The position numbers and the translations under genes were made by a program. The notes beneath the pieces are model-generated. The model was not told where the DNA came from. It saw nothing but the letters and a program-made list of their open reading frames with translations, and did no database searches. A stretch of 64,000 nucleotides of DNA. Source: Streptomyces sp. NBC_01454. GTDB taxonomy: Bacteria > Actinomycetota > Actinomycetes > Streptomycetales > Streptomycetaceae. The stretch is from positions 4,402,001-4,466,000 of the forward strand of contig NZ_CP109460.1 in assembly GCF_036227565.1 (NCBI RefSeq), written 5' to 3'. Each line of letters starts with the position of its first letter. The first letter of the stretch is position 1. Positions 13,151-49,897 of this stretch are shown here, piece by piece.

Positions 13151-13223
13151 TGCCCCCAACGGGATTCGAACCCGTGCTACCGCCTTGAAAGGGCGGCGTC
13201 CTGGGCCACTAGACGATGAGGGC
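13151..13223 (-). tRNA. tRNA-Glu(UUC)
   Basis: 73 bases. Acceptor GCCCTCA pairs with TGGGGGC (with a G-U); the anticodon loop CTTTCAA gives TTC; the T arm GGGTTCGAATCCC is intact. It is the first gene of the cluster, whose promoter should lie just above 13223. Confidence 0.96.
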
Positions 13224-13305
13224 TGGTGGCCACCTTGGCGTCGTTACCGGCGCCGTCGGGGACGTGAGAAGCATATGGGATGGGAGGACCGTTCGCCAAA
13301 ACGGT

Positions 13306-14985: not shown

Positions 14986-15104
14986 TGGTCCCGTATGCCC
15001 CACCGTGCCGCCGTTAAGCGAGGAGCGGGGGCTTCCGGTTGGGCTGCGGTGCGGCGGGCGGTCCACGAGGATCGCCGGGGGGCCGGGTGGCGGAGAATGG
15101 TGGT

Positions 15105-15455: not shown

Positions 15456-15724
15456 TACGGCGGCGGCGGCGGCCGGGCCGGGCCGGTGGGCCGGGCCGGC
15501 CCGGTGCGGCATGGGCCGGGCGCCGCGACGGCTCCCTCCGGCGGTCCGGCGGGCCGCCGGGCCTCTCGGGGTGCCCCGGCGGCACTCCGGGGGCGATCCG
15601 CCGGGTGTCGCGCGTGTCCTCGGGCGGGCGGCGGGAGTTGGGCAGGGCGTCCGTGCCGCTGTCCCTGCGCTCCGGATCCGGAGGTCCCGCCGTGCGCCCG
15701 CGCCCTTACCGCCATTCGCCCCCG

Positions 15725-16339
15725 ATGCCGACACCGTCCCCGTCGTCGTCCAGCGTCCCTGCCCCCGTCCCCGCCACCCGTCCCCCGGCGGGCCGCGTCC
15801 GCTCGCGTGCCGCCGCGGCCGTGTCCGTCTCCGTGCTGGCCCTCTCGCTGGCCGGCTGCATGAACGTGAGCGATCCCGAACAGCCGAAACCGTCCGGCAG
15901 TACGTCCCGGCACGGCGCGAAGGAGGGGGCGCCCGGCTCCGGCGGGGTGTCCGTGGACGGCCGCGGCGGCGGTCCGCGGCGGATGGGGCGCGGCGGCGCC
16001 GCGCACCCGGCCGGCGGCGACGACAAGGAAGCCGCGGAGTCACAAAGCGCGGTGCCGACACCGTCCGACCCCGGTGCGCCGTCCCTTCCGGTGCGGCCTT
16101 CGGGCCCCGAGCCCGGCGCGGGCGCGGGCCACGGCGGCCGCCCCGGGCACGCCCGGCCCTCGCCCTCCCGCCCCGACCGCCCGGCCACTCCGCCGGCCCA
16201 GACCACCCCCGCCACCCCGCCCGCGCAGCCGTCCCCGCCGCCGACCACCCCCGCGCCGCCGCCGAGCGCCCAGGCGTCCGGGCCGTCCCCCGTCTCGCCG
16301 GTGGCGTCGGAGTCGGACGTGTACGAGGACGCGGCCTAG
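15725..16339 (+). CDS. Putative proline-rich lipoprotein
   Basis: 204 residues from an ATG at 15725. A basic segment (RVRSRAAAA) precedes a hydrophobic stretch ending in the lipobox LAGC (VSVLALSLAGCMNVS), indicating lipoprotein export with lipidation of the cysteine. The mature part is almost entirely low-complexity Pro/Ser/Thr/Gly (for example PAQTTPATPPAQPSPPPTTP) and would be an extended wall-spanning tether. There is no convincing ribosome binding site at this ATG and the start is uncertain; an upstream start near 15605 is possible. No enzyme domain is visible. Confidence 0.6.
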   Translation: MPTPSPSSSSVPAPVPATRPPAGRVRSRAAAAVSVSVLALSLAGCMNVSDPEQPKPSGSTSRHGAKEGAPGSGGVSVDGRGGGPRRMGRGGAAHPAGGDDKEAAESQSAVPTPSDPGAPSLPVRPSGPEPGAGAGHGGRPGHARPSPSRPDRPATPPAQTTPATPPAQPSPPPTTPAPPPSAQASGPSPVSPVASESDVYEDAA

Positions 16340-16620
16340 CGTGTACGAGGACGAGGCCCAGGGCGGGCATGAGCGGTCCCGGCGGGGCGGGTGAGCGTGC
16401 CGGGCGCCGGGCGGAACGGCGAGGTCAGCAGGGCATTTGCCATCCGGGGGGCGGAGTGCGTATGGTGGTAGATCGTTTGATCCCATTTGCCCGGCGCCAG
16501 AACAGAAGCGCGCCGCGTGGCGCGTTCTCTCCCTTGCCGTGGCTGACCGCATAGAGGCGGTCGTGTGAAACACACGGAGTTTGGGCGCGTGCCGAGACTC
16601 CGGAAGGTTTCGCATTTCGC
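16340..16620 (+). promoter_or_regulatory. Structured leader of the DEAD-box helicase gene
   Basis: 281 bases without a gene. The proximal part can fold into consecutive small hairpins: GCGCGCC/GGCGCG inside a GAAC...GTTC frame (about 16500-16530), GACCGC/GCGGTC (about 16545-16562) and GTGTG/CACAC just after it. GGAAGG lies about 15 bases before the ATG. Long structured leaders are common on autoregulated RNA-helicase genes; no known riboswitch is recognised. Confidence 0.45.
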
Positions 16621-18795
16621 ATGTCAATTTCCACTGAGCAGTCCGTCATGCCCGCATCCGACGAGCAGACGGTCCTCGAGGTGACGGCGGCCGACGAGGC
16701 GCCCGAGACCCCCGCGGCGGAAGCCGCCACCGACACCGTCACCTTCGCCGACCTCGGACTGCCCGAGGGCATCGTCCGCAAGCTCGCGCAGAACGGCGTC
16801 ACCACCCCCTTCCCGATCCAGGCCGCGACCATTCCGGACGCGCTGGCCGGCAAGGACATCCTCGGCCGTGGCCGCACCGGCTCCGGCAAGACCCTCTCCT
16901 TCGGTCTGCCCGCCCTGGCCACGCTGGCCGGCGGCAGCACCGAGAAGAAGAAGCCCCGCGCGATCATCCTCACCCCGACCCGTGAGCTCGCGATGCAGGT
17001 CGCGGACGCGCTTCAGCCGTACGGCGACGTGCTCGGCCTGAAGATGAAGGTCGTCTGCGGCGGTACCTCCATGGGCAACCAGATCTACGCCCTGGAGCGC
17101 GGTGTCGACGTCCTCGTCGCCACCCCGGGCCGGCTGCGCGACATCATCAACCGTGGCGCCTGCTCCCTGGAGAACGTCCAGGTCGCGGTCCTCGACGAGG
17201 CCGACCAGATGTCCGACCTGGGCTTCCTGCCCGAGGTCACCGAGCTGCTCGACCAGATCCCCGGCGGCGGCCAGCGCATGCTCTTCTCCGCCACGATGGA
17301 GAACGAGATCGGCACGCTGGTCAAGCGCTACCTGAGCAACCCGGTCACCCACGAGGTCGACTCCGCCCAGGGCAACGTCACCACCATGACCCACCACGTC
17401 CTGGTCGTGAAGCCGAAGGACAAGGCGCCGGTCACCGCCGCCATTGCCGCCCGCAAGGGCCGCACCATCATCTTCGTCCGCACCCAGCTGGGCGCCGACC
17501 GCATCGCCGAGCAGCTCGTCGAGTCCGGCGTGAAGGCCGACGCGCTGCACGGCGGCATGACGCAGGGCGCGCGGACCCGGGTGCTCGCGGACTTCAAGGA
17601 CGGCTACGTCAACGCGCTGGTCGCCACCGACGTCGCCGCCCGCGGTATCCACGTCGACGGCATCGACCTGGTCCTGAACGTCGACCCGGCCGGTGACCAC
17701 AAGGACTACCTGCACCGCTCGGGCCGTACCGCCCGCGCCGGCCAGTCCGGCACGGTCGTCTCGCTGTCGCTGCCGCACCAGCGCCGCCAGATCTTCCGGC
17801 TGATGGAGGACGCGGGCGTGGACGCCTCGCGCCACATCGTCGGCGGCTCCGGCGCCTTCGACGAGGACGTCGCCCGCATCACCGGCGCGCGCTCGCTCAC
17901 CGAGGTCCAGGCCGACGGTGCAAACAACTCCGCCAAGCAGGCCGAGCGCGAGGTGGCCGAGGTCACCCGCGAGCTGGAGCGTCTGCAGCGCCGCGCCACC
18001 GAGCTGCGCGAGGAGGCCGACCGGCTGACCGCCCGCGCCGCCCGCGAGCGTGGCGAGGACCCCGCGGAGGCGCTGGCCGCCGCCGCGCAGACCGCCGAGG
18101 CCGAGGCCGCCGCCGAGGCCGCCGTGCCGGCCCAGAGCACCGCTCCGGACGAGCGCCGCGACGACCGGGGCAACTTCGACCGCCGCGACCGCCGCGACGA
18201 CCGCTCCGGCGGCCGTTCCTTCGACCGCGGTGACCGCCGTGACGACCGCGGTGGCTTCAACCGTGACCGCGGTGGCGACCGTGGCGGCTTCAACCGTGAC
18301 CGTCGCGACGACCGCTCGGGCGGGCGTTCCTTCGACCGCCGTGACGACCGTGGTGGCGAGCGCGGTGGGTTCAACCGTGACCGTCGCGACGACCGTTCCG
18401 GTGGGCGTTCCTTCGACCGCCGCGATGACCGTGGTGGCGAGCGCGGTGGCGAGCGCGGTGGGTTCAACCGTGACCGTCGTGACGACCGTTCCGGTGGGCG
18501 TTCCTTCGAGCGCCGTGACGACCGCGGCGGCTTCAACCGCGACCGCGGCGACCGTCCCAGCCGCCCGTTCAACCGTGACGACCGCTCCGGTGGCCGTCCC
18601 GCCACCGGCGGCTACCGCTCCGGCGGCGGCGACCGTCCCTTCAACCGTGACGACCGTTCCGGCGGCCGTCCCGCCTCCGGTGGTCACCGCACCGGCGGCG
18701 ACCGCCCCTACGGCCGTCGCGACGACCACCGTGGCGCCACGACCGGCTCCGTCGGCCGTCGCGAGGACAAGCCGCGCTGGAAGCGCAACGGCTGA
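16621..18795 (+). CDS. DEAD-box RNA helicase with RGG-type tail
   Basis: 724 residues from an ATG at 16621. The core (about residues 40-415) has the Q motif (FADLGLPEGIV..PFPIQ), Walker A GRTGSGKT (84-91), PTREL, DEAD (VLDEADQM), SAT, the ARGIHVDGIDLV region and HRSGRTARAG. It is followed by a coiled-coil-like Glu/Arg/Ala segment (about 430-500) and then about 200 residues of Arg/Asp/Gly-rich repeats (RRDDRSGGRSFDR units), which would bind RNA nonspecifically or drive condensation. It probably remodels structured RNA or ribosome precursors. A strong hairpin follows 39 bases after the stop. Confidence 0.95.
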   Translation: MSISTEQSVMPASDEQTVLEVTAADEAPETPAAEAATDTVTFADLGLPEGIVRKLAQNGVTTPFPIQAATIPDALAGKDILGRGRTGSGKTLSFGLPALATLAGGSTEKKKPRAIILTPTRELAMQVADALQPYGDVLGLKMKVVCGGTSMGNQIYALERGVDVLVATPGRLRDIINRGACSLENVQVAVLDEADQMSDLGFLPEVTELLDQIPGGGQRMLFSATMENEIGTLVKRYLSNPVTHEVDSAQGNVTTMTHHVLVVKPKDKAPVTAAIAARKGRTIIFVRTQLGADRIAEQLVESGVKADALHGGMTQGARTRVLADFKDGYVNALVATDVAARGIHVDGIDLVLNVDPAGDHKDYLHRSGRTARAGQSGTVVSLSLPHQRRQIFRLMEDAGVDASRHIVGGSGAFDEDVARITGARSLTEVQADGANNSAKQAEREVAEVTRELERLQRRATELREEADRLTARAARERGEDPAEALAAAAQTAEAEAAAEAAVPAQSTAPDERRDDRGNFDRRDRRDDRSGGRSFDRGDRRDDRGGFNRDRGGDRGGFNRDRRDDRSGGRSFDRRDDRGGERGGFNRDRRDDRSGGRSFDRRDDRGGERGGERGGFNRDRRDDRSGGRSFERRDDRGGFNRDRGDRPSRPFNRDDRSGGRPATGGYRSGGGDRPFNRDDRSGGRPASGGHRTGGDRPYGRRDDHRGATTGSVGRREDKPRWKRNG
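18170..18700 (+). repeat. Imperfect tandem repeats encoding the helicase RGG tail
   Basis: Units of roughly 50-70 bases built from CGTGACGACCG-, TTCGACCGCC- and GGTTCAACCGTGACCG-like blocks repeat in frame about eight times, with copies near 18300, 18360 and 18470 nearly identical. Such repeats are prone to length change by slippage or recombination. Confidence 0.75.
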
Positions 18796-18833
18796 TCGCT
18801 GACGCCTGACCGGCGCAGCCACCGCGCATGACG

Positions 18834-18870
18834 CAGGGCCCGTACGCACGCAAGTGCCGTACGGGCCCTG
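18834..18870 (+). terminator. Helicase terminator hairpin
   Basis: CAGGGCCCGTACG pairs perfectly with CGTACGGGCCCTG around an 11-base loop. Confidence 0.85.
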
Positions 18871-18982
18871 TGCGTTGGGGGAGACGGGCACCCCGGAAAA
18901 CGGCCCCGGGCCACCTGCCGGGAGGGCCGCACGGCTAATGGCTTCGGGCTGTGGCACCTCCTCGGGCTATGCTGCTCGGTGC

Positions 18983-19055
18983 GGGCCATTAGCTCAATTG
19001 GCAGAGCAGTGGACTTTTAATCCATTGGTTCAGGGTTCGAGCCCCTGATGGCCCA
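18983..19055 (+). tRNA. tRNA-Lys(UUU), integration target
   Basis: 73 bases. Acceptor GGGCCAT pairs with ATGGCCC; the anticodon loop CTTTTAA gives TTT; the T arm AGGGTTCGAGCCCCT is intact. Its 3' part from the anticodon loop onward is the left copy of the 44-bp att repeat, so the tRNA is rebuilt intact after insertion of the element. Confidence 0.96.
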
Positions 19056-20701
19056 CCGTCATCGGTCGAGGAGACCTCCTCTGACCTGCGAGGCAGCGCC
19101 CTCATCGGCTCAGGCCGGTCGGGGCGCTGTTTCGTTTTCGGCTCGTGCGTGAGCGATGCGTGAGCGGGAGCGCCTGAGTCCTCGCCAATGGGCGTTGCCC
19201 GGCGGGTCCTCGGGACGAGCTGCGCCGCCTTCTCGGCTATCTCACGATCGAGTTCGGGCAGCAGGCTCGTGTACGTGTCCGATGTCAGCGCGATGGTCGA
19301 GTGGCGCAGGACCTCCTTCACCGTGTGGATGTCCCCGCCGCCTCCGTGGGTCAGGGTGGCCGCGACGTGACGCAGATCGCGCAGCGTGATGGGCGGGAGG
19401 TCCGTGGTCGCCAGAATGCGACGGAACGTCTCGGAGACGGTTTCCGGGTGCAGGGGCGAGCCGTCCTCCTGAGTGAAGACCTTGCCCGAGTCCTGCCACG
19501 CCGAGCCCCATGGCAGGCGCTCCGCGTCCTGCCGGGCCTTGTGGGCCCGCAGGACGGCCAGATTCAAGCTGTCGAGCGCGATCGTGCCGGCGCTGCCGTC
19601 GGTCTTGGGTTCGGACTCGTACGGGGCCCAGCCGTCCACCACGATCTCCTTGGCGGGAGTGATCAGCCCCGCCTCCAGATCGATGTCCGTCCATTCCTGA
19701 CCGACGCCCTCACCGCGCCGCAGGCCGCGGGTGCCGACGAGGTGGAAGAACGGGTAGAGGCGGTCGCCCTCGGCGGCGTCGAGGAAGACACCGAACTGCG
19801 CCGGTGTCCACACCATGACGGGGCTCGGCAGCTTGCCTGTCTCGCGCCACCGGCGGACGCGCTCCTCCGTCCACAGCAGAGGCTTCGGCCGCTTACCGGA
19901 TTCGAGTTCGACGTGGGCCGCCGGGTTGAACGTGATGAGTTGCTGGGCGATGGCGGCGTTCAGGGCAGCGCGCAGGGTCCGGCGGATGGCCTGCCGGGTA
20001 GCAGGGCCGTTCAGCTTCCGGAACGGCTTCATCTCGGCCAGCTTCTGATTCTCCTCGGCCAACCGTGCTCGCTCGGCGGCGGCGGGCCGCCCCGGCTTGC
20101 TCGGCTTGCAGCGCGCGATCTGCTCACTGCGGGCCTGGTTCTCGGCCTCGATCACCTCGTTCTGGAGCACCATGGCATCGAACATCTCCACCAAGTGGCC
20201 GACGTGGAGACGGTCGAGGCGGATGTGCCCGATGCGCGGCTTGAGGTGGACGCGGATGTGCGACGCGTAGCCGTTGAGCGTCGTCTTGCGCCGTTTCTTG
20301 GAGGCGAACCACGAGTCGAGCCACTCCCTGACGGTGACGGTGCCACGAAGAGGCAGCCCTGCCCTCAGCCGTCGGCGGGTCTCCTCCGGCTCGGGAAGCG
20401 GCGCCTTCTCGTCGGCGGCCTCCTCCAACATGGCGGTCAGCCGCTCAGTGCTGTCCGGGTCGTCCTGGTCGACGAGAGCGAGGAGTGCGCGTATGTGGTC
20501 GAGGTCGGCCTGTGCGGCCTTGAGGGTCTCGTAGCCGGCGCGGCTGAAGGAGCGGCGGGTGCCGTCTTCGCGGGGCGGGAGTTCCTGGCGTATCGAGTAG
20601 GAGCCGTGCTTGCGGCTGATGAGCTTGGGGCAGTTCTTGCCGAGCGGCTTGCCGGTCTTGGGGTCGCGGCAGTAGCAACGGCGGTGCGTGGAGCCCTTCA
20701 A
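18989..20701 (-). CDS. int: Tyrosine site-specific integrase
   Basis: 570 residues from a TTG at 20701 that overlaps the stop codon of the upstream XRE gene (TTGA). An N-terminal segment with Cys/His residues (RRCYCRDPKTGKP) precedes an arm/core-binding region and a catalytic domain: Arg325 (GTRGLRRGE), Arg444 in RDLRH (the first box II His is Arg here, as in many Streptomyces integrases), His467 (LRHSTIALTS) and the nucleophile Tyr477. The last about 20 codons (GARTLNQWIKS) read through the attL site and into the tRNA on the opposite strand, so the C-terminus would change on excision. It catalyses integration into and excision from tRNA-Lys. Confidence 0.95.
   Translation of the reverse strand: MKGSTHRRCYCRDPKTGKPLGKNCPKLISRKHGSYSIRQELPPREDGTRRSFSRAGYETLKAAQADLDHIRALLALVDQDDPDSTERLTAMLEEAADEKAPLPEPEETRRRLRAGLPLRGTVTVREWLDSWFASKKRRKTTLNGYASHIRVHLKPRIGHIRLDRLHVGHLVEMFDAMVLQNEVIEAENQARSEQIARCKPSKPGRPAAAERARLAEENQKLAEMKPFRKLNGPATRQAIRRTLRAALNAAIAQQLITFNPAAHVELESGKRPKPLLWTEERVRRWRETGKLPSPVMVWTPAQFGVFLDAAEGDRLYPFFHLVGTRGLRRGEGVGQEWTDIDLEAGLITPAKEIVVDGWAPYESEPKTDGSAGTIALDSLNLAVLRAHKARQDAERLPWGSAWQDSGKVFTQEDGSPLHPETVSETFRRILATTDLPPITLRDLRHVAATLTHGGGGDIHTVKEVLRHSTIALTSDTYTSLLPELDREIAEKAAQLVPRTRRATPIGEDSGAPAHASLTHEPKTKQRPDRPEPMRALPRRSEEVSSTDDGGPSGARTLNQWIKSPLLCQLS
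19014..19057 (+). repeat. attL, 44-bp direct repeat
   Basis: From CTTTTAATCC in the anticodon loop through the 3' end of tRNA-Lys to two bases past it. Identical to 34602-34645. Confidence 0.93.
19094..19138 (+). terminator. Hairpin supplied by the element downstream of tRNA-Lys
   Basis: CAGCGCCC pairs with GGGCGCTG across a 20-base loop, followed by the T-rich TTTCGTTTT. Because insertion cuts the tRNA off from its original downstream hairpin at 34691-34718, this one could end tRNA-Lys transcription. It lies within the integrase 3' coding part. Confidence 0.55.
19146..19167. repeat. Candidate integrase arm-binding site, left
   Basis: A direct duplication of an 11-base unit (TGCGTGAGCGA then TGCGTGAGCGG). 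The same 22 bases occur at 34464-34485 near the right end. Located 89 bp from the attL core. Confidence 0.6.
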
Positions 20702-37420: not shown

Positions 37421-37682
37421 GATCCGACGCTACTGCTCTCACGTTCCGTAACTGAGGGCCACCCCTCCGCATAACAACTGACGCACAATCACCGCGAGAT
37501 CGTTTAGCGCCGGGTGGGCGACTCGCCCGGTTGCCACCCCGATGAGCCGCAAAGTCCCTGCCCCGGCTCGTGTGCCGGCCGTATCGATTCGTGGGAAGGC
37601 TTGGAATTCGGATGCGATCTCTATTACTGTCCGATAACGCAGCGCGGTCGTCCCAGCCGCCGCAAGAGGCGGCACCGTGCGC

Positions 37683-37845
37683 TGACGCCGAATCCCGCAC
37701 GCGCTTTTCACGCACCCCCAGCACCTCGAACTGCACCAAGGGAACCGGGGAACCACTTCCTTGGGGTGAATCGGACGCCCTCCGCCAGCGGGCGCCCGTA
37801 GGAGACCTTCCTGCTCCGAACCCGTCAGCTAACCCGGTAGGCGAG
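37683..37845 (+). promoter_or_regulatory. c-di-AMP (ydaO/yuaA) riboswitch
   Basis: The conserved blocks of the ydaO class occur in order: CGCCGAATC near the 5' end, ACCGGGGAACCA, TTGGGGTGAATC, GTAGGAGACC, CTCCGAACCCGTCAGCTAACC and GTAGGCG near the 3' end, with 5'/3' pairing of ACGCC and GGCG. It lies 25 bases before the start codon of an M23 peptidase gene. In Streptomyces this riboswitch controls cell-wall hydrolases in response to c-di-AMP. Boundaries are approximate. The preceding 37421-37682 contains no gene. Confidence 0.9.
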
Positions 37846-37869
37846 AAGGAAGGAAAGGAGTGCGCCTCC

Positions 37870-38985
37870 GTGGCGTCCAACAGGCCTGCCCCCGAGGGTT
37901 CGTCCGCCTTTGAGCCCGATGACCGAGGTGCCTTCCGGGGCCCCGGTGATCCGGACGGAAACGGCGACGGTCCGTGGGAGGAATGGAATCCCACCGAGGA
38001 ATCCGTCCGTTCCGTCCGCGGTAAGCACCGGGTGGCCAAGCAGCGTGCCGGCGGCCTCGCCCGCGGCGGCACGGTCCTGGGTGTCGGAGTGATCGCCGCG
38101 GTCGGCGCGAGCGGAATGGCCTCGGCCGAGGACCGCCCGCCGCTTCCGATCTCGATGCCCGACCTCGGCGGAATGGCCGACGACCTCTCCGGCGCCCTCC
38201 CGGACGCCGCGTCCCTCCCCGGCGTCGGCGGCCTCATATCCGACGCGGACGCGGACGCCGGCACGGCCTCCGGTTCCACGGATGCCGCCTCCGGTCCCCT
38301 CACCCAGGCCACCCGCACGGGCGCGGACGACGGCGGCGCGGGCCCCGGCGAGGCGCTGCGCAGCCGGATCCTCCAGCAGGCCGACGTGCAGCAGGGCGCC
38401 GGTGAGCAGGAGGCCCGCGACACCGCCGAACACACCGCCCTCCAGCGGGCCGAGCAGGAAGCCACCGCCCACCAGCAGTCGGCCGAGAAGGCCACCGCCG
38501 CCAAGAAGGCAGCCGAGATGGAGGCCAAGCGCCAGGCCGAAGAAGCGGCCCGTCAGAAGGCGGAGGCCGCGCGCCTCGCCAAGCTGGCCCAGAGCTTTAC
38601 CGCCCCCGTCGCCTCCTTCACCCTGACCGCCGGCTTCGGCGAGGCCGGCGACCGCTGGGCCGCGGACCACACCGGTCAGGACTTCGCCGCACCGTCCGGC
38701 ACGCCCGTCAAGGCGATCCACTCCGGCACCATCACCCAGGCCGGCTGGGCCGGTGCGTACGGCTACCGCCTCGTCCTCACCCTCGACGACGGCACCGAAC
38801 TCTGGTTCTGCCATCTGTCCTCGATGGTGAAGACCTCCGGCAAGGTCGGCACCGGCGAGGTCATCGCCCGCGTCGGCGCCACCGGCAATGTCACCGGCCC
38901 CCATCTCCACCTGGAGGTGCGCCCCGGCGGCGGCGACCCGATCGACCCGATGCCGTGGCTGCGGGACCACGGAATCAAGGTGTAA
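37870..38985 (+). CDS. Secreted M23-family cell-wall endopeptidase
   Basis: 371 residues from a GTG at 37870 with GGAAAGGAG ending 9 bases upstream. An N-terminal charged region (KHRVAKQRAGGLARGG) precedes a hydrophobic export-like segment (VLGVGVIAAVGASGMASA), then an acidic linker, an Ala/Glu/Lys coiled coil (about residues 160-240, EKATAAKKAAEMEAKRQAEE) and the LytM domain with zinc ligands in DHTGQDFAAP and HLHLEV. It probably cuts peptidoglycan cross-links. The long leader carries a c-di-AMP riboswitch, so expression should fall when c-di-AMP is high. Confidence 0.93.
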   Translation: MASNRPAPEGSSAFEPDDRGAFRGPGDPDGNGDGPWEEWNPTEESVRSVRGKHRVAKQRAGGLARGGTVLGVGVIAAVGASGMASAEDRPPLPISMPDLGGMADDLSGALPDAASLPGVGGLISDADADAGTASGSTDAASGPLTQATRTGADDGGAGPGEALRSRILQQADVQQGAGEQEARDTAEHTALQRAEQEATAHQQSAEKATAAKKAAEMEAKRQAEEAARQKAEAARLAKLAQSFTAPVASFTLTAGFGEAGDRWAADHTGQDFAAPSGTPVKAIHSGTITQAGWAGAYGYRLVLTLDDGTELWFCHLSSMVKTSGKVGTGEVIARVGATGNVTGPHLHLEVRPGGGDPIDPMPWLRDHGIKV

Positions 38986-40042: not shown

Positions 40043-40109
40043 GCCAGGGGAACAACCACGGGCGGGGCCGGAACACGGGGCCGGCCCCGTGTTCCGCCGA
40101 CCCCGGCCC

Positions 40110-40415
40110 TCACCCCTGCCGGCGGTCCACCACTGCCCACGACGCGGCGGCCATCCCACCCGCCACCGCGCACACCGAAGGCCACGCCCCGATCTTCTTC
40201 GCCAGCGGATGCGACCCGGCAAACGCCGCCACATAGGCCCCGCCCAACGCCACCGCCGTCGCATTCCCGGCCTTCTGCTGCCACCCCTTGGCCGCCACGG
40301 CCCCGGCCGCCAACAACGCCACTCCCCCAAGGGGCCGCTTCTTGGTCCAGCGGGCCACGGCGTAGCCGCCGAGCAGGCCGGTTGCGGCGATCACGCCTGT
40401 CGGTACGCGGGTCAT
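40110..40415 (-). CDS. Small hydrophobic membrane protein
   Basis: 101 residues from an ATG at 40415, with GGAGG 6 bases upstream; earlier ATGs at 40430 and 40439 are not preceded by such a site. Three likely membrane helices (GVIAATGLLGGYAVARW, LGGVALLAAGAVAAKGW, and VALGGAYVAAFAGSHPL or WPSVCAVAGGMAAASWAVV). No family is recognised. It marks the left edge of the conserved backbone before the defence island. Confidence 0.7.
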   Translation of the reverse strand: MTRVPTGVIAATGLLGGYAVARWTKKRPLGGVALLAAGAVAAKGWQQKAGNATAVALGGAYVAAFAGSHPLAKKIGAWPSVCAVAGGMAAASWAVVDRRQG

Positions 40416-40745
40416 GGGGAACCTCCACATCAGGGACAAGCCGTCGTAGAGCCTACGTCGGGGAGCCGCACACCGACCGGAGCACCCGCAGGGGCGATTT
40501 CAAGCCGGCCAACTATGGCGAAATCGCCATGATTTCCCGTGAATACCCATGTGCTTCAGCCGAAATTCCGAGATGGGGCACCCACTGTTTCGCGACCGGT
40601 GGCAATGCCTCCGCCCAGTGGCCGAGAATCGTGGCGTGGGCGGGGGCACCCCTTGTTCGGCTCGAGCGTCACTTGTGTGACGCGTGCGCTCGGAACACCG
40701 GCATCCCGGCCCGCGACGGGTCCGGTCCAGGGTGAGGCGAAGACG
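40416..40745. other. Left boundary of the defence island
   Basis: 330 bases between the small membrane gene and the Z1 gene. Part of it can be read as an upstream extension of the Z1 frame from 40539, but its composition does not look like the Z1 protein and no regulator gene is present. The island promoter must lie here. Base composition drops from the surrounding level near 40500. Confidence 0.45.
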
Positions 40746-43337
40746 GTGGAAGATCTCGTGAGTGATGAAATCGAGCGCATGTACGAAGTTTTCAGGGATC
40801 TGCTCGACACCGGCACGCCTGAGGAATCCGTAAAGAAACTGGAAGTCCTGCAGATCGGTCAGGACGCCATTCAAAAGATCATCGAGATGCACGAGCAGCG
40901 GACCATCCGGATAAGGGAAATGGAAGAGCCGCGCTCCGTGGTTCTGGACAACCGTGACACCTGGTACACGGGCCCTCGTCCGCGGGACAAGTGCTGGCCG
41001 GCGATGGTGGATCAGTTGTGCCAGGACAGCGGGTGGTCGCTTGATTCTCCTTCGCTCGCGAGTCTGGATTCTTCGTCGACACGCATCGTGTCGCTCCTCA
41101 GCCATCCGCGTGAGAAGAAGTTCTCCACTCGCGGGCTCGTGGTCGGTTATGTGCAGTCCGGGAAAACCACGAATTTCACCGCCGTCATGTCCAAGGCTGC
41201 AGACCGCGGATACAAGTTGTTCATTGTCCTGTCGGGCATCCATAACGGTTTGCGGCGCCAGACGCAAGCCAGGCTCGTCAAGCAACTGGTCCAGGCAAAC
41301 CCCACCAGGTGGTCGCAGCTCACCGGTCTCGACAAGGACTTCACGCCAGGTGACAATGCCGCCTCATACTTCGGAAGAAGTAACCGCACCCATGTGCTGT
41401 GTGTGGTCAAAAAGAATGCCACCGTGCTTCGAAAGCTTTCCGAGTGGCTGGGCTCCGCCTCCGAATACCTCCAGGACTGCCCGGCGCTGGTGATCGACGA
41501 CGAGGCGGATCAAGCAACCGTCGCCACGAAGTCGATCAACCCGCTCATCCGAGAAATCTTGGACCGGCTGCCCAAGTCGGCGTACGTCGGCTACACCGCT
41601 TCCCCTTTCGCCAACCTTCTCATCGACCCGTCCGCGGAGAACGATCTCTACCCTGAGCACTTCATCGTCAATCTGCCGAGTCCCGAGGGGCACGGGTACT
41701 TCGGGACCGAGGTGCTCTTCGGTCGGTACGCTCTCGACGGGGAGGACCCGGCCGAGGTCGATGACGGATACGACATGATCCGTCAGGTGCCTGATGAGGA
41801 TGTCGCGCGCGTCCGACCGTTGAAACGTGCCGATGTCGAAGGCTTCGCTCCCGAGATCACGGAAACGCTGCGGGACGCGCTCCGCTATTTCTGGCTTTGT
41901 GCAGCTGCACGGCGCGTCCGAGGAACGGGAAATCCGCACAACACGATGCTCATCCACACGAGCGTGAACACCACGGTTCACAACAGCTTTCATGCTCCGC
42001 TGGACTTCGAGAGGAAAAGTCTCGCGGGACAGCTGGGCGAGGCGAGTGTCATCGAAGAACTGCGCCGGCTCTGGGTTGCGGAGACGGAGAGGGTGCCCGC
42101 CGGTGCGTTTGCCGAATCCCCCGTGAGCTTCAGTGACGTACTTGCCGTCCTGCCGGATGTGCTCGACGATTGTCGAATCATCATGGACAACTCCAGCAGT
42201 GAGGACCGGCTGGACTACGAGAACGGTCCGGTCGTGGCGATCGCCGTAGGCGGTAACACTCTCTCCCGTGGCCTGACACTGGAAGGCTTGACAGTCAGCT
42301 ATTTCGTACGTGCGGTCTCCGCTTACGACACGCTGCTGCAGATGGGACGCTGGTTCGGCTTCCGGACGGGATACGCCGACCTTCCTCGCATCTGGATGAC
42401 AGGGGAGCTGCAGGGGTGGTTCCGCCATCTGGCCACTGTCGAGGCCGAGATGCGTCGTGACATCGACGTCTACATGACCGAGGACAAGACCCCGCTGACG
42501 TTTGCCGTCAGGCTGCGTACCCATCCTGCGCTGCGGGTCACGGCGGCCGCAAAGATGAAGAGTGCGGTGTACGCCGCGTCGGCGTTCGGCGGCCAACGTG
42601 TTCAGACACGCTACTTCCACACCGATGCCGAGTGGCTGAAGCGGAACCAATCCGCAGCCAGGAACTTGGTCGCCAAGGCCTTGCGCGCAGCGGCACAGCA
42701 GGAACGCCGGCCCGAGGACGGCCGCTTCCTGTTGCGTGACGTGCCGCACGATCACGTACTCGACTTCCTTGCCGACTACCGGTTCCATGAGAAGTCGCAA
42801 GAGTGCGATGCGGAGTTGCTGAGCGGTTACATCCAAAAGCGAACCGCTGTCGGCTCCCTGCGTACGTGGAATCTCGCCATCGTCGGCAACCCCGTCGGAA
42901 GCACGGAGGAGAACTTCGAGTTCGCGCCGGGTATGGCCGTGCGTCGCATCACGCGCGCGAAGATCGACACCACGGACTCTCCCGCCGGGTTCGCCGATAT
43001 CAAGACGCTGATGAGCCGTAAGGATGCCGCTCTCGATCTCCAGGGCGACACGACGAAGCTGAGCGAGGAGGAGATCAAGGCGGAGCGCAGGCGCCAACTG
43101 CCGGACACCGGACTCGTTGTGCTCTACCCGATCGACAAGGTCTCCGAGCCGGTGCCGGCGAAGGCGACGCGTCGCGCCCTGAACGCCGAGGAGCACGTCA
43201 TCGGCGTCGGCCTCGTCTTCCCTCGACCGTCGGGCGACGACAGCACCGTCGAATGGAACTACATCTCTGCCGATCTGTCCGGTGTGAACCTCGAGGTGGA
43301 GGACTTCAGCCTCGTGGAGGGCGAGGCCGCAGGGTGA
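40746..43337 (+). CDS. Z1-domain SF2 helicase-like ATPase
   Basis: 863 residues from a GTG at 40746; a longer form from 40539 cannot be excluded. It has Walker A GYVQSGKT (134-141), LVIDDEADQAT (Walker B, 251-255), a YTASPFANLL segment (motif III-like, replacing SAT), GGNTLSRGLTLEGL and the Z1 signature LLQMGRWFGFRTGYADLPRIW. Z1 proteins are SF2-type ATPases of prokaryotic restriction-modification-like operons, first described with MutL/MORC homologues. It would translocate on or remodel DNA for the nuclease. The next gene overlaps its stop (GTGA). Confidence 0.92.
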   Translation: MEDLVSDEIERMYEVFRDLLDTGTPEESVKKLEVLQIGQDAIQKIIEMHEQRTIRIREMEEPRSVVLDNRDTWYTGPRPRDKCWPAMVDQLCQDSGWSLDSPSLASLDSSSTRIVSLLSHPREKKFSTRGLVVGYVQSGKTTNFTAVMSKAADRGYKLFIVLSGIHNGLRRQTQARLVKQLVQANPTRWSQLTGLDKDFTPGDNAASYFGRSNRTHVLCVVKKNATVLRKLSEWLGSASEYLQDCPALVIDDEADQATVATKSINPLIREILDRLPKSAYVGYTASPFANLLIDPSAENDLYPEHFIVNLPSPEGHGYFGTEVLFGRYALDGEDPAEVDDGYDMIRQVPDEDVARVRPLKRADVEGFAPEITETLRDALRYFWLCAAARRVRGTGNPHNTMLIHTSVNTTVHNSFHAPLDFERKSLAGQLGEASVIEELRRLWVAETERVPAGAFAESPVSFSDVLAVLPDVLDDCRIIMDNSSSEDRLDYENGPVVAIAVGGNTLSRGLTLEGLTVSYFVRAVSAYDTLLQMGRWFGFRTGYADLPRIWMTGELQGWFRHLATVEAEMRRDIDVYMTEDKTPLTFAVRLRTHPALRVTAAAKMKSAVYAASAFGGQRVQTRYFHTDAEWLKRNQSAARNLVAKALRAAAQQERRPEDGRFLLRDVPHDHVLDFLADYRFHEKSQECDAELLSGYIQKRTAVGSLRTWNLAIVGNPVGSTEENFEFAPGMAVRRITRAKIDTTDSPAGFADIKTLMSRKDAALDLQGDTTKLSEEEIKAERRRQLPDTGLVVLYPIDKVSEPVPAKATRRALNAEEHVIGVGLVFPRPSGDDSTVEWNYISADLSGVNLEVEDFSLVEGEAAG

Positions 43338-44350
43338 ACAGCGAGTGGAGAAATCGCCTCGATCGCCATTGGACCGCATTGGAGGCATCCGTTCCGTCGC
43401 ACGAGAGGGCTCTGCGGGTTGCCGAGCTGGCGGTCGACACGAATGAAGGGGCCTTGGCGGTAGCTGTTGATCATCATGGTCACCGCCATCTCCTGGTGCC
43501 CGTGCGTGCTCATCAGAAGATTCGGGGTGGCTTCAACGGGCCTGTGCTGGAACTGCGCAAACACCCTCTTGAGGACAACGGCGACTATCAGGACTACGTG
43601 AATCTGGGATGCCTCCGCCGCGAAGTGAATGATGTCTTCACATCCCTGTGCGCGGACATTGTGGCGGCCGCAGGAGCCCTGCCCAGCAATCCCGTCAGAG
43701 CGCTCCATCACGTCATCGACCGTTGGAGGGCTCTCTTTCAGACCGGTGGTGCGTTGCTGGGGCCGGAGCAGATGGCGGGGCTCTTCGGGGAGCTTCTCGT
43801 CATGGAAAGGCTGCTTCTGGCGGACCCGAGCGCACATCGCCTTTGGCGAGGTCCGGGTGGACACCGGCACGACTTCGGCGCGGGCGTCCGTGCCGTCGAG
43901 GTGAAAGCCTTGACCGGTCGGCGGGGGCGGCGGATTCGCATCCACGGACTGGGGCAATTGGAGGCGCCGCAAGATGGAACGCTGTACTTGGCCTGCTTCG
44001 GGCTGGAGCGCGCCACCGGAGCGGGTATCGGCTTGGTCGAACTCATCGACCGTGTCATGCGGCTCGGCGATGACGAGAGTGCGCTGCTCACCCTGCTGGC
44101 GGCCGAGGGATACCGCTGGAGCGATGCTGAACGCTACCGAGACGTCCGGTTCGTCGTGCAGGAGGAGTGTTGGTATGACGTGGATGCCTCCTTCCCGAAG
44201 CTGACGGGTGAGTTGCTCCACGACGCCGGCGTGCCCATTCGTGTGGAGGACGTGCACTACACCGTTGACCTGTCCTCCGATTCGCCCCCCGCGCTTCATG
44301 TCGGCAGCGTCGACGATCATCTCCGCACTTTGATCGAGGAGAGTGCATGA
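43334..44350 (+). CDS. PD-(D/E)XK motif nuclease
   Basis: 338 residues from a GTG at 43334, overlapping the Z1 stop. The N-terminal half is a helical domain (SEWRNRLDRHWTALEASVPS; VHHVIDRWRALFQTGGALLGPEQMAGLFGELLVMERLL), and the nuclease core is HRHDFGAGVRAVEVKALTG: Asp of HDF and the ExK of VEVKA. It is the likely cutting subunit. The next gene overlaps by ATGA. Confidence 0.88.
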   Translation: MNSEWRNRLDRHWTALEASVPSHERALRVAELAVDTNEGALAVAVDHHGHRHLLVPVRAHQKIRGGFNGPVLELRKHPLEDNGDYQDYVNLGCLRREVNDVFTSLCADIVAAAGALPSNPVRALHHVIDRWRALFQTGGALLGPEQMAGLFGELLVMERLLLADPSAHRLWRGPGGHRHDFGAGVRAVEVKALTGRRGRRIRIHGLGQLEAPQDGTLYLACFGLERATGAGIGLVELIDRVMRLGDDESALLTLLAAEGYRWSDAERYRDVRFVVQEECWYDVDASFPKLTGELLHDAGVPIRVEDVHYTVDLSSDSPPALHVGSVDDHLRTLIEESA

Positions 44351-46287
44351 CCGGCCCGGCGTGGTACTCACAGCCCTTTCCACCGGAGGGGGCCAGCGCG
44401 GCCGAGGGCATCCGGAATCAGCTCGGCCGCCCGGAACTGGACGCGCTGACGATTCTTGTCCGGGAGTCCGCCCAGAACAGCTGGGACGCTCGGGTGCCCG
44501 GGACTTCTCTTCCTGTCGACTATCGTCTCGATCTCTATGCTGTCGGACCCGCGCACGTCGCGTCGTGGCGCGACATGCTGCTGCAAGGTGCGCCATTGAC
44601 GTCACACCTGCCGTTGCGGACGTGCTTGCAACGACCGACGCTGCAGGTCATGGCGATTTCCGATCGGGGCACGAAGGGCCTCGGCGGCCCGACGCGTGCA
44701 GACACCGTGGTGACGAAGGACCACGACTTCGTATCCTTCGTCCGCAATATCGGAGAACCCCGTGACTCCGAACTCGGTGGCGGCACCTACGGATTCGGCA
44801 AGGGCATCTTCTACCTGCTCTCCGAGGCCGGAACCGTTCTGCTGCACACCCGGTGCAAAACGGCCGACGGGTTCGAAACCCGCCTGATGGGCTGTGCACT
44901 GTGGGAGAGCTACATCGCCCGTGATCCGATGGGCGAGCGTCGTTACACCGGTCGTCACTGGTGGGGTGACACTTCCGGCGAGGTGGTCGAGCCGTTGGTC
45001 GGCGAGGCTGCGGAGAGTGCTGCACACCGTCTCGGCCTCAGGCCGTTCGGCGCTGACGAGACCGGCACCACGATCGTGGTGATCGCGCCGAAGCTCGACG
45101 GCCTGGGTTCGGACGAGGCGGCGGATTACCTGGCGGACACGATCGCCTGGCACCTGTGGCCGAAGATGCTCAGCACATCATCCGGCTCACCGGCCATGCG
45201 CTTCACCGTGACCTGTAACGGCATCGAGCACCCGGTGCCCGACCCTCGTACCACTCGACCGCTCAATTTGTTCGTCGAGGCATTCGAGGCGATGAACGGC
45301 CCCGATCACAAACTCCTGCGTTGCCTCAAGCCGAAGCGGGACCTCGGACGTCTCGGCTTGATCAAGCGCTTTGCAGTCCCTGCGGAGCCCACCCGCGCGT
45401 CCCGGCTGATGGGCATCGAGGGGATGCTTCATCATGTGTGCCTGATGCGGCCGGCTGAACTCGTCGTGACCTACCATCCGGGGCCGAAACCCGCAGCCGA
45501 GCATGTTTCGTACGCCGGGGTATTCCGGGCGGACAAGGCCATGGACGACATCTATGCCAGGGCAGAGCCACCAACCCATGACGCATGGAATCCTCATTCC
45601 CTGGATACACCGGACAGTACGTTCGTGCGTTCCACCTTCCAGCGCATCAAGGAGTTGCTGGAACCGCTCTTGGGCATCGGGGGAAGCGCGCGTCAGGGAT
45701 CCGCACATATCGCCTTGGGGGCGGCGAGCGGCAAGTTCGCCTCGCTGGTCGGCGGGGCTTGGGGTGTCGGTGGGGCCACCGACTTCAGCCGTCCGGGTGG
45801 GACCACTACGGGGCCGGCGCCGAACGGGCGTGACGTGACTGCCGCAGGCTCAGAGGGAAGCCACGCCGACCGATGCGACGGCACCGACTCAGGTGCAGGG
45901 AGTATCCCTCGGCAAGGGGCGGTGTCGCGTCCGCGCAACTCACCTTCCCGCCCCCGTGTGGAGTATGTCGGCGAACCGTACTGGGATGAACGGCTCGGGG
46001 CATCGGTCCTGGTCCAACCGTTCCGGCTCCCCGTCTCCGGCCCGCAGCGGGTGCACGCCCGTCTGGATGTTGCGCTGATGGGAGCCGGCAATCGTGAGAC
46101 CGACCCACCGCGTGGGGCCGAGATGCCCGGTCTGGTGGGTTGGGAGAACTCCGGCAGGGAGATCTCGTCGACGCCCACGTATGTCATCGAGGGTGGGGAC
46201 GGTGCGCTGTGGCGAGCGCTCGTCCGTCCGGCCCCGGACACCATGACGGAAATCGGCATCGTGGTCGAGGAGGTGAAGTTCAGTTGA
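44347..46287 (+). CDS. MutL/MORC-like GHKL ATPase
   Basis: 646 residues from an ATG at 44347 (ATGA overlap with the nuclease gene). The N-terminal Bergerat ATP-binding fold has motif N in RESAQNSWDAR (Glu40, Asn44, Asp47), DRGTKGLGG (Asp106, Gly108) and the lid GGGTYGFGKGIFYLL (144-158). A transducer-like region follows, then a Ser/Gly-rich linker (about 490-530) and a C-terminal beta-rich domain (YWDERLGASVLVQPFRLPVSGPQ). MORC-class ATPases clamp DNA and probably act here as the sensor that licenses the nuclease. Confidence 0.88.
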   Translation: MTGPAWYSQPFPPEGASAAEGIRNQLGRPELDALTILVRESAQNSWDARVPGTSLPVDYRLDLYAVGPAHVASWRDMLLQGAPLTSHLPLRTCLQRPTLQVMAISDRGTKGLGGPTRADTVVTKDHDFVSFVRNIGEPRDSELGGGTYGFGKGIFYLLSEAGTVLLHTRCKTADGFETRLMGCALWESYIARDPMGERRYTGRHWWGDTSGEVVEPLVGEAAESAAHRLGLRPFGADETGTTIVVIAPKLDGLGSDEAADYLADTIAWHLWPKMLSTSSGSPAMRFTVTCNGIEHPVPDPRTTRPLNLFVEAFEAMNGPDHKLLRCLKPKRDLGRLGLIKRFAVPAEPTRASRLMGIEGMLHHVCLMRPAELVVTYHPGPKPAAEHVSYAGVFRADKAMDDIYARAEPPTHDAWNPHSLDTPDSTFVRSTFQRIKELLEPLLGIGGSARQGSAHIALGAASGKFASLVGGAWGVGGATDFSRPGGTTTGPAPNGRDVTAAGSEGSHADRCDGTDSGAGSIPRQGAVSRPRNSPSRPRVEYVGEPYWDERLGASVLVQPFRLPVSGPQRVHARLDVALMGAGNRETDPPRGAEMPGLVGWENSGREISSTPTYVIEGGDGALWRALVRPAPDTMTEIGIVVEEVKFS

Positions 46288-47180
46288 GCCGACGTGCACT
46301 CCCCTATCGTCGACCCGCGAGCGAGGTTGCCGAGGCAGACGACTGGATGCTTCTGGTCGATGGCGAGGAACTCCCCCTTCCCGACGCGCTCAGCGACTGG
46401 GACTACCAGATGGATCTGGCGCTGCGGCGTATCATGCGGATCGATCCACAGCGAGCCCGAGCGGAGTCAGGCCTCCCACCGGACGCGGTGTTGGCGCTCA
46501 CCGTCGTGTGGACGGCCACCGGTTCGAACCTTCGTGCTCCTGCAGACCGCATCTCTCTCGCCGGCACGGAAGTCAGGGATTGCGAACTGACCGCTCGTCT
46601 ACGGGGGAGTGATCTGGGCGGCAACCTGATCGTGGACACGGCGCTGGTGCTTGCGGAAACCACGGACAGAGGCGCGCCGGCCTCCCCACGACGGGCCGGG
46701 TCGGTGTTGTGGAGTGACCGTCACTCCGTGCGCCTGCAGGGAGACGCTCCACAGTTCCCCATGGCCGTCATCGACTTCGCGCACACCTCGTTCCCGAATG
46801 ACGCCGCATGGTATCTGCAGATACAGAACGATCTCCTCGGTGCCACCATGGGATCGATGCTCTTGCTGGTGAACGAAGCGAACGGCGCCACCACGACAGC
46901 GTTCCGCAATGCCGGAAAGCCACGACAGGTCGACCGAGCCATACTGGCTGCTGTTTACGCCGACGCGGCGAGGGTCATGGTTGAACACGCGCTTCGGCAC
47001 TCCGATTTTATTGACGGCGCGGAGTTCCCGCCGGAGACACTCGGTCACACCCTGATGGGGCTCTTCCAACAGCTGTTCCCCGGGGCCACAATCAACGACA
47101 TACAGCTCAGGTTTGAGCGTTCCGCGAGCATTTTCGCATCCGACCTTCAGGCAGCAGTCAAAATCTTCCAGGATGTTTGA
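46284..47180 (+). CDS. Uncharacterised island subunit
   Basis: 298 residues from a TTG at 46284 that overlaps the previous stop (TTGA), with GGAGG 10 bases upstream. No known catalytic motif. N-terminal segment with WMLLVDGEELPLPDALSDWDYQMDLAL, a beta-rich middle (SVLWSDRHSVRLQGDAPQFPM) and a helical C-terminus. Members of the same operon type carry a gene of this size here, so it is probably a structural subunit bridging ATPase and nuclease, perhaps by DNA or effector recognition. Confidence 0.75.
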   Translation: MSRRALPYRRPASEVAEADDWMLLVDGEELPLPDALSDWDYQMDLALRRIMRIDPQRARAESGLPPDAVLALTVVWTATGSNLRAPADRISLAGTEVRDCELTARLRGSDLGGNLIVDTALVLAETTDRGAPASPRRAGSVLWSDRHSVRLQGDAPQFPMAVIDFAHTSFPNDAAWYLQIQNDLLGATMGSMLLLVNEANGATTTAFRNAGKPRQVDRAILAAVYADAARVMVEHALRHSDFIDGAEFPPETLGHTLMGLFQQLFPGATINDIQLRFERSASIFASDLQAAVKIFQDV

Positions 47181-47989
47181 TGAGTTTCCTTTACCCACGA
47201 CTGCTCTCCGGCCAGGCTGCCCCCTTGCACGAGCGCTATCGGCATCTCACCGTGACGGAATTGGCCGATCTGGCAGACACCGGGCACGTCTCAGCCGTCT
47301 ACGTGGCCACCGGCGGAGATCGGGTACCGGAAACGAAGCTCGAAGAACTGCGTGCGCTCGTCATCTCGCTTGCCGAAGAGGCAGGTTTTCCCGGTGAGTC
47401 CGATCGTGAACGCAGGGCGCTATTCGATCGGCGGCTGGCGACCGCGGTGCATGCTTCGATGGAGCTGGCTCCCGCCGAGGCTGCCTCCGGTGACATCTGG
47501 GCCTTCATGGCTTTGGTGTTGCTGCCGGATGTCTCGTACTGGCGTTACCCAAGGCCACCAGGAGATCGTGTGCTCGGCACGGACCTGACACGCCATGTCG
47601 TGGGCCGCATGTGGTGGCGTGCGCAGTTGATCCACTCACCGGACGAGCCCGATCCCTATGCCGCAATGAGCATTCTCGGCGAGGATGCCTTCGACCGCAT
47701 CTACAGCAGGCGCCGGGCGTTGGGCGGGAGCCCCTATCTGGTCAAGGCGATCCTCAAGGTGTGGGACAGCCTGGATCTCCAAGGCCTTCCCTACCGGGAA
47801 ACTCTTGAGGATTTCCTCAAACGACTCTTGCGTCTCGCTCCGTTCGTTCTGTTCGAGTCTCTCGCACCGACGGCCCTCGATGGCGAACTCCGCGCGGTTG
47901 CGAAGGAAACGATGACCGCAGTCCTGGAGGCCTCGGAGGCCGGATCGCACGAGATCCGTCACAAGATCGACGTCGCCTTCGGCAGGTGA
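47180..47989 (+). CDS. DUF6339-like protein
   Basis: 269 residues from an ATG at 47180 (shares one base with the previous stop, TGATG). Helical protein with HLTVTELADLADTGHVSAVYVATGGDRVPETKLEELR near the start and GRMWWRAQLIHSPDEPDPY in the middle; I recall similar proteins as DUF6339 in such operons. No catalytic residues can be assigned. It is the last of the five plus-strand genes, converging on the methyltransferase gene with only 17 bases between the stops. Confidence 0.78.
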   Translation: MSFLYPRLLSGQAAPLHERYRHLTVTELADLADTGHVSAVYVATGGDRVPETKLEELRALVISLAEEAGFPGESDRERRALFDRRLATAVHASMELAPAEAASGDIWAFMALVLLPDVSYWRYPRPPGDRVLGTDLTRHVVGRMWWRAQLIHSPDEPDPYAAMSILGEDAFDRIYSRRRALGGSPYLVKAILKVWDSLDLQGLPYRETLEDFLKRLLRLAPFVLFESLAPTALDGELRAVAKETMTAVLEASEAGSHEIRHKIDVAFGR

Positions 47990-48006
47990 GGGGAGGTGCG
48001 GTCCGT

Positions 48007-49329
48007 CTACTCCCGCTCCCCGCGCAAAGCATGGTGGATGACCTTGGCGATGGCGGTGGCGAGGTCTACCGGGACCGCATTGCCGATCTGCCGGGCGATC
48101 TGCGACTTGCTGCCGAACCAGCGGAAATTTTCCGGGAACCCCTGAATAAGGGCGGCCTCGAGGTGAGTGATGGGCCGGTCCTCCTTCGGGTGCAGGTAGC
48201 GACCCTTTTCCGGCTTGAAGAACTCGGTTCTGATGGTTACCGAAGGTTTATCCCAGACGAGGCGCCCCATGACATCGCCGGAGCCTGATTGGTGATTTAT
48301 CCAACTTTCCGTGGTGAGCAGCCTTCCGCCGGGCTTTGTGGCGTCCACAAGATTGTGCCGATTCCCGCCGGCCGGGATTGCTCGGTAACGGGCGAGCGAG
48401 AGGGCCGTGGGGTTCCTGCCGAAGTGCAGCTGGGATGTCCGGAAAGGTCCGGGCATCTTGTTGCGGATGCGGTCGATGAAATCCTGATCCAGTCGTCCCG
48501 TCTCCGTGATCTTCCGAGAGATGCGTACTGCGGCCGGAGTGCCGTGAGCGGTCCGGGAAGGAAGGTCTGTGCTTGTCACAGCCGGCGGGACGTTTCTGAG
48601 GCATTCCTCCAGCGTCTTCCAGAGGTCGAGCTTGTCAGCGGCTGAGTCCGACGGAGTTGCGAAGCTGAGCTGTGTGTTCTCCCCCGCCCGCGGTTCCGGG
48701 ACGCGCGGCGGATCGGGACGCCGGTGCGTGGGGCGAGGGTGCTCCACCAGCGGCAGATCGGACTGTGTGCCGATGATGATCGTGCGCTTGCGTGCCTGGG
48801 CGACGCCGAAGTCTGCAGAATTGAGCAGCTGCTCGCAGATTTCGTAACCGGCCTCCTTGAACTCCTTCCGGAGGCTCTCGAATTCCTGTGAGGTGCTGAA
48901 ACGGTCGACGTTCTCAATGACGAAAACCTTCGGTTCCGCTTCTTTGACCACTTTGAAGTACTGGCGCCACAGTTGATTTCGAGGGTCGTTCGGGTTCTCC
49001 TTTCCGAGGCCTGAGAATCCTTGGCATGGCGGTCCGCCGAGAATTACTTCAGCCTTTGGGATGGGCCCCTGTGCCCAGCGGGTGATGTCTCCGAGGTACA
49101 CATGGTCTGTGCCCCCTGACAACTCGCCGAAATTTTCTGCATAGGTCATGGCTGCTGCGGCGTCCAGCTCGACCGCGGCCACGGGAGCGAACGCCGACGG
49201 CGTGGTCGAATCCCCTTCCCGAATGGTCGACCCGTCAAGGGCGATCCGGAGGAAACCCTGCGTCAGCCCGCCCGCCCCGCAAAAGAGGTCGATCATTCTG
49301 ATGGGGCGGTCAGGGGCGTGCATGCTCAT
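48007..49329 (-). CDS. C5-cytosine DNA methyltransferase
   Basis: 440 residues from an ATG at 49329 (second ATG two codons later). Transfers a methyl group from AdoMet to C5 of cytosine in a specific sequence. Motif I DLFCGAGGLTQGF (14-26), motif IV GGPPCQGFSGLG with the catalytic Cys102, motif VI VIENVDRF, motif VIII QARKRTIIIG, motif X RQIGNAVPVDLA. The variable target-recognition domain lies between about residues 195 and 330, so the target cannot be read. Paired with the Vsr gene 111 bases upstream; it protects host DNA from the facing operon. Confidence 0.95.
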   Translation of the reverse strand: MSMHAPDRPIRMIDLFCGAGGLTQGFLRIALDGSTIREGDSTTPSAFAPVAAVELDAAAAMTYAENFGELSGGTDHVYLGDITRWAQGPIPKAEVILGGPPCQGFSGLGKENPNDPRNQLWRQYFKVVKEAEPKVFVIENVDRFSTSQEFESLRKEFKEAGYEICEQLLNSADFGVAQARKRTIIIGTQSDLPLVEHPRPTHRRPDPPRVPEPRAGENTQLSFATPSDSAADKLDLWKTLEECLRNVPPAVTSTDLPSRTAHGTPAAVRISRKITETGRLDQDFIDRIRNKMPGPFRTSQLHFGRNPTALSLARYRAIPAGGNRHNLVDATKPGGRLLTTESWINHQSGSGDVMGRLVWDKPSVTIRTEFFKPEKGRYLHPKEDRPITHLEAALIQGFPENFRWFGSKSQIARQIGNAVPVDLATAIAKVIHHALRGERE

Positions 49330-49440
49330 GCCGGCGAGTCTAGCCGGCGCCGCGGACAAGGGCATTGCCCTTGCCCGAGCGCGGCGTTGTCCCGAGCCGT
49401 GTCCAAACCCTTGGCCGGCGGGCGCGCCCCACTAGATCGG

Positions 49441-49866
49441 TCAGCGGCGGCGACGGGGCGCCGTGTCGACCGTGGCCGCCACCCGCTCTGCCACGAGCGC
49501 GGGATCCTCGTGTTCCCAGAACCGCAGTACGGTCCAGCCCTGCTCCATGAGATGTTCCGTCGTCTCGCGGTCGCGGGCGATGTTGCCGTCGAGTTTGTTG
49601 CGCCACCAGTCGGCATTGGCCTTGGGGCGTGTGGCGTGTTCAGGGCAGCCGTGCCAGAAGCAGCCATCGAGGAACACCGCGACCTTGGGCCCTGGGAAGG
49701 CGATGTCGATGGTGCGACGGGGGAACCCGGGCACGCGCCGCTGCAGTCGGTAGCGGTGGCCGGAGGCGTACAGGAGGCGCCGTACGGCCATCTCGGGGCC
49801 GGTGTCCCGGCGGGCCTGGACGCTCATTCGGGCTGAGACACCGGGGGACGAGGGAATGGCGGGCAC
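49441..49866 (-). CDS. vsr: Very short patch repair endonuclease
   Basis: 141 residues from a GTG at 49866; ATG at 49827 is an alternative but loses a conserved Ser-rich start (SSPGVSARMSVQARRDTGPE). The zinc motif GCFWHGCPEH and preceding TIDIAFPGPKVAVFLDG with the catalytic Asp identify Vsr, which nicks T in the T:G mismatch created by deamination of 5-methylcytosine. Repairs the mutagenic by-product of the adjacent C5 methyltransferase. No strong ribosome binding site is visible. Confidence 0.93.
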   Translation of the reverse strand: MPAIPSSPGVSARMSVQARRDTGPEMAVRRLLYASGHRYRLQRRVPGFPRRTIDIAFPGPKVAVFLDGCFWHGCPEHATRPKANADWWRNKLDGNIARDRETTEHLMEQGWTVLRFWEHEDPALVAERVAATVDTAPRRRR

Positions 49867-49897
49867 ATGGCCATTGTGACGGAGGGGCTGACGGGTG

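Follow-up and report, generated by a model that had tools for sequence, protein, structure and literature searches.

The stretch analyzed here, 64,000 nucleotides of Streptomyces sp. NBC_01454 (contig NZ_CP109460.1, positions 4,402,001 to 4,466,000; hereafter the window), carries at positions 40746–49866 a group of seven genes, which encode a predicted C5 methylase, its predicted repair partner Vsr and five linked core proteins. A first-pass annotation made from the sequence had described this seven-gene island, and its existence was confirmed, the families named for six genes being supported by Pfam matches except for the ATPase, which was recognized by its motifs, and protein X. The features are as follows.

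40746–43337, forward strand: helicase with PF10593 (2e-64); MzaC-like, under the equivalog cut-off
43334–44350, forward strand: DUF4420 PD-(D/E)XK nuclease, 338 aa (PF14390, 2.3e-50); MzaD-like, under the cut-off
44347–46287, forward strand: GHKL ATPase, probably of paraMORC2 type, 646 aa (GHKL motifs; PADLOC PDC-M33A, 2.5e-10)
46284–47180, forward strand: protein X, 298 aa, with a predicted Ig-like beta sandwich (residues ~10–153) and a mixed alpha/beta C-terminal part
47180–47989, forward strand: DUF6339 protein, 269 aa, predicted all-helical (PF19866, 3.6e-11)
48007–49365, reverse strand: C5 cytosine DNA methyltransferase, 452 aa (alternative start ATG at 49329; PF00145, 5.5e-63)
49441–49866, reverse strand: Vsr-type very-short-patch repair endonuclease, 141 aa (PF03852, 2.8e-16; TIGR00632, 5.7e-32)
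40043–49897, no strand: inserted stretch with the seven genes and a small open reading frame (ORF), between an aldo/keto reductase gene (to 40042) and PrsW (from 49898)

Related loci were collected by a genome scan with two peptide patterns, in which the best 80 of 102 matches gave 77 distinct loci, and neighboring genes were counted with custom hidden Markov models (HMMs) trained on these loci. The HMM locus set of 80 comprised the 77 scanned loci together with two plasmids and the window itself, with L003 omitted as a fragment of the genome to which the window belongs. The helicase contains a Walker A motif with K140, DDEAD at 251 and DTLLQMGRWFG at 528, and all columns checked, including the D, Q, R, F and G of the C-terminal motif, are invariant in 77 of 77 loci; the sequence at residue 528 agrees with DThhQXuRhFG, the C-terminal motif of the superfamily II (SFII) helicase in the type-3 operons of Iyer et al. 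(2008; PMC2292703). In the nuclease, E, D and ExK are invariant in all 75 aligned loci, which is consistent with the E-D-ExK pattern of the same operons. The annotated combination of a helicase with Lys140 and a PD-(D/E)XK nuclease was thus borne out by both the family matches and the conserved residues. In two plasmid loci, from Agrobacterium (L001) and Rhizobium (L117), the core has no DUF4420 match and is preceded by an AAA ATPase gene, the other preceding gene being annotated as a UvrD-like helicase in one and as TGBp1 family in the other.

The third core protein, which has no Pfam match, carries the ATPase motifs RESAQNSWDAR (E40), DRGTKGLGG (106), GGGTYGFGKG (144) and EPPTHD (407), and the columns checked are kept in 77 of 77 loci, except for the DxG glycine (74/77). 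The first-pass annotation had called it a MORC ATPase. MORC proteins, with their GhXhhpXXRhl motif, have been set apart from paraMORC1–5, and in paraMORC2 the S5 domain carries a strongly conserved ExxxH motif in its C-terminal part (Iyer et al., 2008; PMC2292703). As EPPTH occurs at 407–411 beside the GHKL boxes, with its E and H present in 77 of 77 loci, and a regular expression built from the published letter classes found no GhXhhpXXRhl in the window's protein, the ATPase does not fit MORC proper and is probably better named paraMORC2.

We count the methyltransferase and Vsr as parts of the system. Of the 77 scanned loci, 76 contain a C5-methyltransferase-like gene and 61 contain Vsr, so that the pair, correctly placed in the island by the first-pass annotation (PF00145; PF03852 and TIGR00632), is recurrent; a C5 methylase and Vsr nearby are also frequent, not obligatory, members of the type-3 operons. 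Since 238 of 295 genomes of the window's genus carry 1 to 11 C5-methylase matches each, the chance of such a gene in a random 20-kb stretch is at most ~3%, a rough value given that the loci are related to one another and include some from other genera. The window's pair is located just past DUF6339 on the opposite strand, and in L013, L022 and L027 the pair lies upstream. Motifs I, IV, VI, VIII and X of the window's enzyme are intact (GGPPCQGFS, VIENVDR, QARKRTIIIG, GNAVP). When the active methyltransferases on the core tree of 77 loci were classed by motif IV (GFS, 39; TF, 28; AYS, 7; three loci unclassed), nine class changes were counted, compared with a mean of 28 with shuffled labels; core and active methyltransferase have therefore for the most part been inherited together, yet the methyltransferase has been exchanged repeatedly. 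The window's enzyme shares 38–45% identity with other GFS-class enzymes and 21–29% with TF-class enzymes in the main aligned stretch, where short second pieces reach up to 38%. TF-class enzymes (e.g., L008:2517-3608 and L049:3047-4210) have LEQV in place of ENV in motif VI in the aligned examples, and Gln occupies that position in 28 of 83 non-fused methyltransferase ORFs.

The DUF6339 protein of the window (model pLDDT 88.1, pTM 0.82; no Foldseek match at E <= 0.001) is without the C-terminal extension found in many relatives. In 37 of the 77 scanned loci (Streptomyces, Kitasatospora and Streptacidiphilus), DUF6339 runs in frame into a C5-methyltransferase domain, a Pfam scan having been made on two of the 37; in five of these ORFs (L012, L021, L040, L043 and L068) the called start lies upstream of DUF6339, and the frame through both domains is continuous. 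The fused domains have the motif-IV PPCQ replaced in 37 of 37, typically by GLPRVKS, and keep the motif I Gly, the motif VI Glu-Asn and the motif VIII Gln and Arg in all 37, with the motif X Asn changed to His in 36. Lacking the catalytic Cys, the domain is predicted to perform no methylation, and it may read DNA. A second methyltransferase gene lies beside the fusion in 36 of the 37 loci (L010, L016 and others), the contig of L038 ending there. Five stand-alone methyltransferase-like genes of Nocardia are also without the catalytic Cys and form, together with the 37 fused domains, one clade (support 0.993; FastTree, midpoint root). Next to this clade (0.97) stand VPC-type methyltransferases from L004 and L006 that are active and belong to the same system, suggesting that the dead domain likely arose from a methyltransferase that was once a partner there. 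As 35 fused domains fall in one subclade and two (L009 and L014) group with the Nocardia genes, the fusion may have happened twice.

Other partners of DUF6339 were also observed. Nine loci bear a DUF3320-like tail, a label given by regular expression and length (of three such tails scanned with Pfam, that of L049 passed the cut-off, that of L004 fell below it and that of L013 had no match), and two Nocardia proteins carry a helix-turn-helix; L071, counted as tail-less, has an unclassified tail of ~200 residues. Besides a full core, the plasmid of Synechococcus elongatus IITB6 harbors a second arm (L115:256-5820), in which DUF6339 is accompanied by a GHKL-like protein, an uncharacterized protein and a methyltransferase. 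The methyltransferase gene shares four bases with that of DUF6339, and its product is extended at the C-terminus by a long stretch in which cysteines are clustered and Pfam matched nothing. The common theme is that DUF6339 adjoins, or is fused to, something DNA-handling. On the core tree, the window pairs with Actinomadura craniellae L022 (0.95) within a clade (0.93) in which the DUF3320-like tail is present in each of the other eight members, which suggests that the window's bare DUF6339 likely lost it. The short form looks stable, as relatives at 85, 79 and 76% identity are equally short (268–269 aa), in a search that cannot list proteins over ~470 aa and could therefore miss fused relatives close to the window.

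Genomic context was examined for signs of acquisition. A search of 26 genomes with PrsW gave matches in 15, one of them the genome of the window, and 10 of the 13 other matching congeners were used. The reductase directly adjoins PrsW in eight of the ten, excluding it as part of the insert; in the other two, which also lack the reductase, PrsW is adjoined by the gene at 37570–38985. The seven island genes and the small ORF at 40110–40439, which has no Pfam match, had no match in the same chromosomal stretch of the ten congeners, and the window thus carries ~9.9 kb extra (40043–49897). Because it is absent from this spot in the ten relatives examined, the island was likely acquired by transfer. 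The weaker GC bias from which the first pass had suggested transfer was also confirmed: GC content at third codon positions is 0.72–0.78 in six of the seven island genes and 0.845 in Vsr, compared with 0.93–0.95 in PrsW and TrmB and 0.94 in the reductase. No end repeats were found at the insert. Protein X is encoded elsewhere in the genome in two of the ten congeners (G004 and G012); across the genus, 23 of 295 genomes, counting that of the window, contain it. Farther away in the window, five tRNA genes (Asp, Phe, Asp, Glu and Lys) lie at 8239–19057.

The locus is real, conserved, likely transferred, of defence type and of a kind already predicted in print; the interpretation of the first-pass annotation was supported in part, its MORC label needing correction. 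We moderately favor the view that the island is an ATP-dependent restriction–modification system, in which the five linked proteins would form an ATP-driven machine that cuts unmarked invading DNA and the predicted C5 methylase would mark host DNA, so that methylation would guard the island's host. Several observations weigh against this view. We found no measured activity for this system in the literature, we could identify no DNA-recognition domain in the core proteins of the window, and the nuclease was undetected in L001, L056, L062 and the Rhizobium plasmid. Of the 77 core-tree loci, 15 (11 from Nocardia) have a conserved core and no Vsr; in the Agrobacterium and Rhizobium plasmids the methyltransferase–Vsr pair lies ~9 kb downstream, beside another restriction gene, and the annotated methyltransferase of the Synechococcus plasmid adjoins the second arm rather than the core. 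In addition, one methyltransferase swap was examined by comparing L042 and L012 with twelve hand-chosen GFS neighbors: the mean identity of each core protein and the dead methyltransferase falls by 1.4 to 4 percentage points, and the biggest drops in 30-residue windows are 0.05 to 0.16 (the dead methyltransferase and the ATPase show the highest values; no significance test), with no marked local shift in the core or the dead methyltransferase. Together with the nine class changes, this swap suggests that the core may not be bound to one specificity in common with the methylase; either unrelated methyltransferases guard the same target, or the core draws its specificity from the methyltransferase.

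A more specific proposal, which we advance tentatively, is that DUF6339 serves as specificity socket in a GHKL–helicase restriction machine of five subunits, to which the Cys-less methyltransferase is fused as a non-methylating target reader. In many actinomycetes, the system's own methyltransferase would have lost its catalytic cysteine and then fused to DUF6339, and the machine would probe its own target through the dead copy; for the window itself, reading in trans would fall to the free methyltransferase (or X), modification and recognition being one shared part. The relatives of the island may hint at how such machines read DNA, and their dead methyltransferase–DUF6339 fusion, rather than the window's own form, is the most interesting lead.

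Alternatively, the core could be an MZA-like system that acts against phages independently of methylation and is set off by a phage structure or by a replication intermediate, with the methyltransferase–Vsr genes retained close by as a separate solitary pair; this is rather unlikely, given a methyltransferase-like gene in all but one of the scanned loci and a methyltransferase-like domain fused to a core subunit in 37. The frequency of Vsr, and the action of MutL with Vsr and helicases discussed by Iyer et al. (2008; PMC2292703), would accord with a core tied to Vsr repair of C-to-T mutation at methylated sites, but the core is conserved in the Vsr-less loci and a patchy, transferred island better suits defence, so that we regard such a role as improbable. 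Even harder to credit is a type IV-like enzyme, directed at foreign DNA that bears modifications and tolerant of its own modification pattern: modified-base-sensing domains are possible in X or DUF6339, but none of the seven proteins matched a known modification-reading domain, and 5-methylcytosine of the cell's own beside a modification-dependent nuclease needs a very specific exemption.

The island can be compared with several known systems. In CglI and NgoAVII, the R-protein combines a PLD nuclease with B3 domains (PMC4267653), whereas the island has a DUF4420 nuclease with a GHKL ATPase, X and DUF6339, and no PLD or B3 domain was matched by Pfam in the seven proteins. The MZA system (mzaABCDE; NCBIfam and PADLOC models), mentioned in PMC9523054, is approached by the MzaC-like (395 of 1500 bits) and MzaD-like (88 of 420 bits) proteins, both short of equivalog level; no Mza model matched the window's ATPase, and no AIPR protein was matched among the seven proteins, other window ORFs not all having been scanned. 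The PADLOC candidate PDC-M33 weakly matches the ATPase (PDC-M33A) and DUF6339 (PDC-M33C), protein X matches no PADLOC model, and we found nothing on the mechanism of PDC-M33 in the literature. VcSduA, a Shedu protein of an architecture formerly annotated as paraMORC3 that is active against phage, likewise joins a GHKL ATPase to a PD-(D/E)XK nuclease, but as a single protein, with no helicase or methyltransferase named in the sections concerned (PMC12137116). In the putative defence system Type I of Miller et al. (2022; PMC9523054), three further genes are unnamed in the text, and its identity with the island is thus putative; its Type I section gives neither mechanism nor fusion. The passages of Iyer et al. 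(2008; PMC2292703) on the type-3 operons name neither DUF6339 nor protein X as such, nor a methyltransferase–adaptor fusion. These operons share with the island the SFII helicase, the restriction endonuclease (RE)-fold nuclease and a GHKL ATPase, here fitting paraMORC2, and frequently the C5 methylase and Vsr; the proposed correspondence with the restriction–modification operons of Iyer, Abhiman and Aravind is thus upheld by the helicase motif, the E-D-ExK residues and the methylase with Vsr.
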